Positions 11,902 to 20,152 of a DNA stretch of 23,367 nucleotides are shown here, piece after piece. The position numbers were made by a program, and so were the translations under genes. Position 1 is the stretch's first letter. Each line of letters opens with the position of its first letter. Origin of the DNA: a virus. The stretch lies in the IMG/VR virus record IMGVR_UViG_3300025138_000374, positions 1 to 23,367 of that record. One strand, written 5' to 3'. The notes beneath the pieces are model-generated. The model was given only the letters and a program-made list of their open reading frames with translations. It was not told the DNA's origin and made no database searches.

Positions 11902-11913
11902 TTAAATTAACTG

Positions 11914-11941
11914 TTGACTTTAGTTTTAAATGTATGATAAT
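11914..11941 (+). promoter_or_regulatory. sigma70-like promoter, copy 1 of a repeated cassette
   Basis: TTGACT (-35, 11914-11919) and GATAAT (-10, 11936-11941) are separated by 16 bases. The stretch from TTGACTTTAGT to the GAT is nearly identical to one at 20122, and both are followed by a TTAAT(A)ATTAAGGAGAGA leader. It lies in a 69-base intergenic gap and should start the transcript for the gene at 11971, whose ribosome binding site AAGGAGA is about 6 bases before the ATG. Confidence 0.75.
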
Positions 11942-11970
11942 AAGTAATAGTTAATAATTAAGGAGAGACT

Positions 11971-12384
11971 ATGTCAATGCATTTATTAGGTCCAATGTGG
12001 ACTACTACAAAATATAATAGCAAGCGAAAAAAAAATAATAATCAACGTGAATTGCTAGCAAAAGCAGAACACGACAAATGGTTAAAAAAGATGGGAGCTC
12101 ACCCAACTCAAAGATCTAAAATAGAGGATAAGTGTTACGGTAGCACAGCTGACTCCAACCCAGTAAGAGAGGGTTCAATTCCTTCATCCTCTGCCAAATC
12201 TTTTGTTCCTGTGTTCAATTTAACATCTAAGTTTCCTGTTGGTAACTTGACTACAAAACGAAAAGAGAATATTTATACTGGAGATCAACTTGTAGGTGTA
12301 GCTACTCTACATAAAAGTAATATGGTTCCTGTTAGAAAAGATTCTAATGATGCAAAAGAAATAGCAAGAATGAGAAGAGGATAA
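11971..12384 (+). CDS. conserved-looking phage protein containing a nested tRNA gene
   Basis: A 137-aa basic protein with a strong ribosome binding site (AAGGAGA). The N-terminus MHLLGPMWTTT, the basic helix RKKNNNQRELLAKAEHDKW and the C-terminus YTGDQLVGVATLHKSN...VPVRKDSNDAKEIARMRR follow a layout I recall from proteins of unknown function in many marine T4-like phages. Both ends look conserved, so the frame is probably real. Residues about 51-76 are encoded by the same bases that form a tRNA-Trp (12123-12196), in sense orientation and without interrupting the frame. Cutting out the tRNA would destroy the message. Function unknown. Confidence 0.75.
   Translation: MSMHLLGPMWTTTKYNSKRKKNNNQRELLAKAEHDKWLKKMGAHPTQRSKIEDKCYGSTADSNPVREGSIPSSSAKSFVPVFNLTSKFPVGNLTTKRKENIYTGDQLVGVATLHKSNMVPVRKDSNDAKEIARMRRG
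12123..12196 (+). tRNA. trnW: tRNA-Trp (anticodon CCA), nested in a protein gene
   Basis: A 74-base cloverleaf. The acceptor stem 12123-12129 pairs perfectly over 7 bp with 12186-12192. The D stem GTGT/GCAC (32-35, 43-46) holds a GG-containing loop. The anticodon arm is 12148-12152/12160-12164 with loop CTCCAAC and anticodon CCA at 12155-12157. The variable loop has 4 bases. The T arm GAGGG/CCTTC holds loop TTCAATT. The discriminator is G (12193), a known TrpRS identity base, and CCA is encoded (12194-12196). Oddities are A at position 8 and T at 14 instead of the usual T8/A14, and an A-C mismatch at the base of the anticodon loop (31-39). It lies on the coding strand inside the 137-aa gene at 11971-12384. 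Confidence 0.82.
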
Positions 12385-14206: not shown

Positions 14207-14668
14207 ATGATTTACTATAGTACAAAAACGTATGGACATAATATAGGTCTAAGTGCAGTGTTTCGTCAGCCTAATGCTGATCATTCACATTGTCATTTAT
14301 TACATGGTTATAGTCTACAATTTAAATTTACATTTGCATGTTATAAATTAGATAATAAGAATTGGGCTGTAGACTTTGGTGGTCTTAAACCTTTGAAAGC
14401 TTGGCTTGAAGATCAATTTGATCATAAGTTGTGCTTAGATCAAGATGATCCATTTATGAGAAAGTTTATTGAACTAGAAGATTTAGATTTAGTTAAAATA
14501 AGAACTTTTGCTGGAGTTGGAGCAGAGAAGTTTGCTGAACATGCTTTCCAGTTTGCTGATACTATGATAAGAGATAAAACTTTAAGTAGATGTTGGGTAC
14601 ATGCTGTTGAATGTGCAGAACATGGAGCTAACAGTGCAATTGTGAAAAAGGAATATATTAATGAATAA
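14207..14668 (+). CDS. queD: QueD-type 6-carboxytetrahydropterin synthase (divergent)
   Basis: A 153-aa T-fold protein, 8 bases after queE with a GGAGAG ribosome binding site. It would turn dihydroneopterin triphosphate into 6-carboxytetrahydropterin. Matches to QueD are C29 in HSHCHLLHGY (catalytic Cys, C-x3-H), AVDFGGLKPL (VxDFxxLK), FDHKLCL (LDHxxL) and VECAEHGANS at the C-terminus. Two of the three usual zinc histidines appear changed: the first (AxHR) reads AVFR and the third (HGH) reads HGY. I recall this SHC...HGY subgroup in bacteria and phages, so other histidines (H11, H26, H28, H30) may bind the metal. It overlaps folE by 8 bases. Confidence 0.85.
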   Translation: MIYYSTKTYGHNIGLSAVFRQPNADHSHCHLLHGYSLQFKFTFACYKLDNKNWAVDFGGLKPLKAWLEDQFDHKLCLDQDDPFMRKFIELEDLDLVKIRTFAGVGAEKFAEHAFQFADTMIRDKTLSRCWVHAVECAEHGANSAIVKKEYINE

Positions 14669-15362
14669 AAATGGTATCTCTGATGTTATTAAACAGAAAC
14701 TTGAAAAAGATGGTAAGCGATATTGGGCTGGTGATAATATATCAGAGTACGTTAATGAAGAAGATAAACAAGCCCTTATAGAAGAGTTAAAAGAAAAGTT
14801 TGAAGGTGTATTAGATAGTTTGTTAATAGATCGTCACAACGATCCTAACTCAATGGATACACCTCGTCGTCTTGCAAAGATGTATATTAATGAAATTATG
14901 GGTGGACGATATGAGAAAGCACCTAAAGTTACAGCTTTTCCTAATACAGATCCTGATACTCGATATGGAGGTATTATTGTTACAAGAGCAGAATTAATAT
15001 CAATGTGCTCTCATCATCACCAACCTGTTAAAGGTGTAGCTTATATTGGACTACTTGCAGGTGTTCAGGTAATTGGTTTATCTAAATATACTCGTATTGC
15101 TCAGTGGTGTGCTAATCGTGGAACATTACAAGAAGAACTTACTATGAGTATAGCTAATGAATTACAAAAGTATACAGGTACAAAAGACATAGCTGTTTAT
15201 GTACAAGCTACACATGGTTGTATGGAACACAGAGGTGTTCTTGCTCATAGCTCACTTACACAAACTACTGAGCTTCGTGGACAATTCTTTAATCCATCAG
15301 TAAAGAATGAGTTCTTAGACTATATAAAAATGCAACAAACATTTGCAGGTACAAGAACATAA
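14661..15362 (+). CDS. folE: GTP cyclohydrolase I
   Basis: A 233-aa protein that opens GTP to dihydroneopterin triphosphate, the first step of folate and 7-deazaguanine synthesis. Zinc ligands are C116 and H119 (CSHHHQPV) and C187 (HGCMEHRGV). GLSKYTRIAQWCANRGTLQEEL (read in parts GLSKYTR, RLQ-like TLQEEL) and NSMDTPRRLAKMYINE are the standard FolE signature blocks. The length fits the family (about 190-250 aa). It overlaps queD and is closed by a strong terminator, so it is the last gene of the que unit. It uses more CGT/CGA codons than neighbours, perhaps reflecting high expression or recent acquisition. Confidence 0.95.
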   Translation: MNKNGISDVIKQKLEKDGKRYWAGDNISEYVNEEDKQALIEELKEKFEGVLDSLLIDRHNDPNSMDTPRRLAKMYINEIMGGRYEKAPKVTAFPNTDPDTRYGGIIVTRAELISMCSHHHQPVKGVAYIGLLAGVQVIGLSKYTRIAQWCANRGTLQEELTMSIANELQKYTGTKDIAVYVQATHGCMEHRGVLAHSSLTQTTELRGQFFNPSVKNEFLDYIKMQQTFAGTRT

Positions 15363-20102: not shown

Positions 20103-20121
20103 AATTAAATGCATTTTAGTG

Positions 20122-20152
20122 TTGACTTTAGTATTAAATGTGGGATTATAAT
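20122..20152 (+). promoter_or_regulatory. sigma70-like promoter, copy 2 of a repeated cassette
   Basis: TTGACT (20122-20127) is followed by GATTAT at 20144-20149 (16-base spacer), aligned with the GATAAT of the copy at 11914; an overlapping TATAAT lies at 20147-20152 (19-base spacer). The sequence TTGACTTTAGTxTTAAATGT is shared with copy 1, as is the downstream TTAATTAAGGAGAGA. It should start the transcript of the gene set from 20179. Confidence 0.75.

Follow-up and report, generated by a model that had tools for sequence, protein, structure and literature searches.

tRNA genes of varied identity nested in frame within the linker of a conserved phage gene

The tRNA-Sec gene (selC) that lies inside selB in Alphaproteobacteria has been presented as the first case of a tRNA nested within an open reading frame (ORF) of bacteria, and it was hypothesised that the protein and the tRNA are alternative products (Mukai 2021, PMC8124441). 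A further precedent comes from mitochondria of Armadillidium vulgare, whose cox1 contains a tRNA-Lys for which alternative processing was proposed (Doublet 2015, as cited in PMC8124441). The phage gene analysed here, referred to below as gene X, resembles selB–selC in that an entire tRNA lies in sense inside an ORF, that alternative products can be proposed and that remnants and losses are found in relatives. However, selC supplies the codons of a C-terminal extension shortly before the stop codon, in a gene to which it is functionally linked. The tRNA of gene X is instead placed mid-protein with conserved protein on both sides; moreover, gene X occurs in phages, its tRNAs are interchangeable, stacked and of many identities, and the identity varies between relatives. 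As cited there, cox1 of A. vulgare also contains a full tRNA in direct orientation inside the coding region, but this is a 60-nt tRNA in an animal mitochondrion, with no recurrent cassette site. The tRNA clusters of T4-like and marine phages hold the same tRNAs, with encoded CCA and the same 4–6 nt spacers, as gene X, but are located between genes rather than inside one. In the open-access papers searched, no report of a phage tRNA nested in an ORF was found, the only related account being PMC8124441. What is new relative to the selB–selC precedent is the mid-protein position, the exchange of one tRNA identity for another and the stacking of two or three tRNAs in an array.

The window, the whole stretch of DNA that was analysed, is a 23,367-base record in a virus collection (IMGVR_UViG_3300025138_000374) and contains T4-like genes, for example those for a UvsX-type recombinase and a DnaB-type helicase. 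Gene X is a 137-codon ORF on the plus strand (11971–12384) that matches family phrog_27048 over its full length (E 9.7e-13, residues 1–136 on profile positions 1–127 of 127). The PHROGs entry reads only 'unknown function', while about half of the distinct copies in our set bear tRNAs; neither Pfam, NCBIfam nor PHROGs assigned a function. Five bases 5' of the ATG, a Shine–Dalgarno-like AAGGAG can be read (11960–11965, +), and a consensus scan gives a candidate sigma-70-like promoter, TTGACT-16-GATAAT, upstream (11914–11941, +). We note that this promoter-like sequence is held in a 37-nt direct repeat (11907–11943 and 20115–20151, 84% identity) which lies upstream of two genes and is possibly an early promoter shared by them. 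Also in the window (14207–15362 and 2174–2893), a 6-pyruvoyl-tetrahydropterin-synthase-like gene (PF01242) adjoins a GTP cyclohydrolase I gene (PF01227), a pairing reminiscent of 7-deazaguanine pathways, and there is a cytidylyltransferase gene (PF02348) resembling sugar-nucleotide enzymes. Homologues of gene X share an N end consisting of M[ST]MHL..., a lysine/arginine-rich stretch and a helix, and a C end of the form YTGD.L.G...LHKSNMVP.RKDSNDAKEIARMRRG; the linker between them differs in sequence and length and is the site of the tRNA. Based on homologue alignment and AlphaFold2, the N half in the window (11971–12122, +) begins MSMHL... and has the basic stretch and a predicted helix at residues 25–41 (pLDDT about 90). 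The C half (12199–12384, +) ends in ...YTGDQLVGVATLHKSNMVPVRKDSNDAKEIARMRRG, and its terminal part is near-identical to tRNA-free homologues; of the approximately 61 codons 3' of the tRNA, the last 36 are strongly conserved. Residues 55–66, which the tRNA encodes, were modelled with pLDDT below 50, in a model that is poor as a whole (pLDDT 61).

ARAGORN detected a single tRNA in the whole window, a tRNA-Trp(CCA) at 12123–12196 (+) with its anticodon at 12155–12157, a G discriminator and an encoded CCA tail. The only Rfam match in the window was that of RF00005 to 12123–12193, which runs end to end (model 1–71) and, at 48.5 bits (E 9.6e-8), is far above the gathering score of 29. The tRNA begins at the third position of a codon (phase 2), the 137-amino-acid frame stays open throughout, and the cloverleaf is present in the predicted fold of the gene X mRNA. 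A preliminary description, made from the letters of the window, had claimed a complete tRNA in sense inside an intact gene whose protein ends are conserved on either side, and both points were borne out; the two ends align with those of tRNA-free homologues, which encode other, variable linkers with different residues, and the nesting in the window exceeds chance. It had also pointed to A8/T14 in place of T8/A14 and to one mismatched pair in the anticodon stem. Both are present, the mismatch being A·C; its suggestion that they may reflect decay or mimicry was not supported by comparison with other phage tRNAs. The U8–A14 tertiary pair that A8/T14 replaces is a usual, rather than a defining, feature of the Rfam tRNA family. 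The A8/T14 combination occurs in all 39 common standalone phage tRNA-Trps as well as in all 15 nested ones, and the anticodon-stem mismatch in 7 of these 15. As standalone members score between 47 and 54 bits, the 48.5 bits of the window tRNA are no mark of decay. This A8/T14 family (L040, L047–L165) is common in marine viral contigs, and among 84,980 bacterial and archaeal species genomes none matched its search pattern exactly; capture of the tRNA from a host was rejected on this basis.

An open frame across a tRNA is by itself weak evidence, since 33 of the 39 standalone tRNA-Trps are also open in phase 2, and 74% of the free tRNAs in the loci are open in some phase. Stop avoidance was considered as a sign of selection and dropped, phase 2 being open in 14/15 nested versus 33/39 standalone tRNA-Trps (Fisher p 0.36). 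Likewise, A8 as an adaptation to coding, whereby T8-A9-G10 would be a TAG stop in phase 2, was rejected as the standalone tRNA-Trps share A8/T14. The comparison indicates instead that A8/T14 predates the nesting and allowed phase 2 to be used. Canonical U8-A9-G10 reads TAG in that phase, and canonical nested tRNAs are therefore found in phases 0 and 1. In L204–L206, the nested tRNA-Trp is read in another codon phase, which in L204 is likewise in frame; read in its usual phase, the tRNA would contain a TGA.

A first scan for relatives of gene X returned forty loci, nearly all without a tRNA in the gene. The N and C halves were then searched separately in IMG/VR and paired, so that broken copies would also appear. 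This yielded 163 distinct copies; in 85 of them this same linker is occupied by between one and three tRNAs. The carriers are four Melnitz isolates and otherwise metagenome contigs. Many of the 163 copies are closely related, and at 86% identity the set used for the tree comprised 35 tRNA-bearing and 40 tRNA-free rows. The nested identities include Trp, Arg(TCT), Pro(TGG, CGG), Ala(TGC), Met(CAT), Asp(GTC), Thr(TGT) and an Ile-like tRNA, with lengths of 74, 76, 77 and 78 nt. Tandems of Ala+Pro, Arg+Ala, Arg+Met and Arg+Pro with spacers of 4–6 nt occur in single gene X ORFs, as do two triples, L333 (Arg+Met+Pro) and L402 (Arg+Pro+Thr), in which all tRNAs pass the Rfam threshold. Scores of nested tRNAs reach 73 bits, and many identities and tandems exceed Rfam thresholds. 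The nest in the window was confirmed, and the class proved far larger than the single case first described: in many phages this linker hosts other tRNAs, alone or as tandems. One ORF (L280, 2225–2316) contains, between two good tRNAs, a tRNA-like element with a long variable arm that scores 30.5 bits to tRNA-Sec, under the cutoff. As a control, only one of 334 distinct tRNAs outside gene X in the fetched loci lay inside an ATG-started ORF with at least 30 amino acids on each side; chance nesting outside gene X is rare.

The frame is kept in 84 of the 85 tRNA-bearing copies across different insert lengths, and all 78 tRNA-free copies are open. Automatic scoring had returned 82/85 as in frame and open; two of the exceptions (L232 and L233) are artefacts in which the C match overruns the gene's own stop codon. 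L328 (1199–2081) is the one tRNA-bearing copy with a true interruption, there being about 580 bases of other DNA between the tRNA and the C half. In the Melnitz clade, pN/pS was 0.12 for the N half and 0.29 for the C half; the clade with Arg/Ala/Met/Pro arrays gave 0.21 and 0.27, and the Pro clade 0.19 and 0.21. These values indicate that both protein halves are under purifying selection in tRNA-bearing relatives. Third codon positions dominate the differences 3' of the tRNA (169/160/617 and 55/42/464), and the third-position excess is much smaller inside it (305/384/483); for the corresponding control with ORFs other than gene X, L158 was the only true case. One explanation for the nesting is that only the tRNA matters and that the frame through it is accidental, as tRNAs are often open in one phase. 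This is very hard to reconcile with the pN/pS values of 0.21–0.29 downstream of the tRNA, with the retention of frame despite varied insert lengths and with two copies (L357 and L378) from which former tRNAs appear to have been deleted in frame, leaving scars, and we consider it the least credible of the alternatives. Another possibility is that the halves are translated separately, with re-initiation 3' of a tRNA that could block ribosomes; conservation of both halves would be expected in this case also. However, separate units need no common frame, yet one is kept with tRNAs of four lengths and with tandems, and no conserved start 3' of the tRNA was seen in the gene X alignments, which leaves re-initiation highly improbable.

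Selection was also evident on the tRNA layer. Among the 15 distinct nested tRNA-Trps, 97.8% of cells were paired, both sides had changed in 11 of 21 pairs, and stem covariation was as high in none of 500 shuffles; these patterns indicate that the nested tRNAs are under structure-level selection. It could be argued that only the protein matters, the cloverleaf being either a relic that decays or mimics a tRNA or a control element that acts in cis when an aminoacyl-tRNA synthetase binds it. The A8/T14 swap and the mismatched pair of the window tRNA would be in keeping with this, and decay does occur; L311 has a tRNA of 34.8 bits with 3 of 7 acceptor pairs broken and 21 differences from its sister tRNA-Arg. 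Nevertheless, the compensatory stem changes, the encoded CCA, the scores of up to 73 bits, the varied amino-acid identities and the tandem arrays, spaced as in ordinary tRNA clusters, make such a protein-only explanation improbable.

A tree of gene X, built with the tRNA columns removed, requires seven changes of presence or absence and 25 changes of tRNA content, all in the linker of one gene; these counts are approximate because few columns were available and many forks are unresolved. A single clade of all tRNA bearers was rejected (p-AU 1e-5), as was a single clade of all Trp nests (2e-5). The copy in the window falls inside a group of 36 rows (100/100) of which no other bears a tRNA, and the phylogeny indicates that its tRNA was gained separately within a clade that lacks them. 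The nearest relative of this tRNA is the nested tRNA of L129 (three differences), with the nearest standalone tRNA at six differences. The L129 protein belongs to a different clade from gene X of the window, which makes it likely that a tRNA cassette was transferred from one gene X lineage to another. These events could also be accommodated if the tRNA is a tolerated passenger, such that nesting and dual coding are real, the disordered linker tolerates tRNA landing without any regulatory use, and the need for the protein eliminates all but in-frame events. The linker is indeed variable and predicted to be disordered, some relatives with no tRNA inside gene X have one just beside it (L025, Arg, 10 nt 3'; L020, Leu), and the frame was retained where the tRNA was lost (L202 and L327) or has decayed (L311). 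Set against this is the concentration of so many presence and content changes in one linker, compared with 1/334 elsewhere, a pattern that needs a cause of its own, be it a hot spot or a benefit. We regard tolerance without use as having an even chance of being correct; it parts from the explanation that we prefer only on the usefulness of the arrangement, and our confidences in the two overlap.

The above comparisons demonstrate that the tRNA is nested, that the frame is retained, that both halves are under selection as protein and that the tRNA is under selection for its structure. Building on these results, we propose, with a probability of about 0.77, that one linker hosts swappable tRNAs through which the frame runs, and that a transcript gives either protein or tRNA. 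The gene X protein would be small and, as predicted, mostly disordered, with its middle linker as the landing and swap site for tRNA genes. The gene would be transcribed once, with each transcript taking one of two fates. If a ribosome traverses it, the cloverleaf would be unfolded and a full protein with a tRNA-encoded linker made. Maturation of bacterial tRNAs involves RNase P at the 5' end and 3' trimming to an encoded CCA; should folding of the cloverleaf come first, these steps would release a usable tRNA, with destruction of the mRNA, and this tRNA may then add to phage translation. Because excision must cut the mRNA and translation must unfold the cloverleaf, a given transcript would yield protein or tRNA, and we infer that the two processes should be mutually exclusive. 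A bolder version of this proposal, which we consider rather unlikely, is that gene X is a purpose-built carrier whose translation gates tRNA maturation, with cassettes swapped as hosts change; if so, the tRNA supply of the phage would be set by how frequently ribosomes pass over the array. An attenuation-like loop through Trp codons 5' of the tRNA (W10 and W37 in the window) was also considered and is unsupported, L129 having none. A functional RNA that overlaps the interior of a conserved protein in many lineages, and with different tRNAs, offers a natural test of how the ribosome and RNase P share one transcript, and provides an example of a protein linker that may serve as an exchange site for tRNA cassettes.

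The arrangement is also present in an isolated phage, Methylophilales phage Melnitz EXVC044M (host OM43, strain H5P1), in which a tRNA-Trp (68570–68643 of MZ577097.1) lies inside gp124, a gene X homologue, at a place and in a codon phase identical to those of the window. Peptides predicted from gp124 across the tRNA region include CYGSTSDSKPLGR and GSIPCSPAIR. This is the only tRNA-Trp of Melnitz, its other three tRNAs being intergenic, and therefore, if functional, it must be excised from the gp124 mRNA. The passages found of the Melnitz paper list gene 125 among four tRNAs, report no match of the tRNA-Trp to host or phage tRNAs in the set used there, and make no mention of its nesting (PMC9004378). 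In the deposited record (MZ577097.1, 68376–69065; locus L043), locus tag _125 is absent and the overlapping protein gene _124 is retained. The arrangement is probably concealed by annotation practice, as with Melnitz _125; such practice may conceal nested tRNAs in general, and other nested RNAs may be missed likewise. A separate observation on the same genome concerns 74645–74721 of MZ577097.1 (L408, 2146–2222), where ARAGORN predicts a tRNA-Arg with anticodon ACG; in the passages found, the Melnitz paper calls both tRNA-Arg genes TCT.
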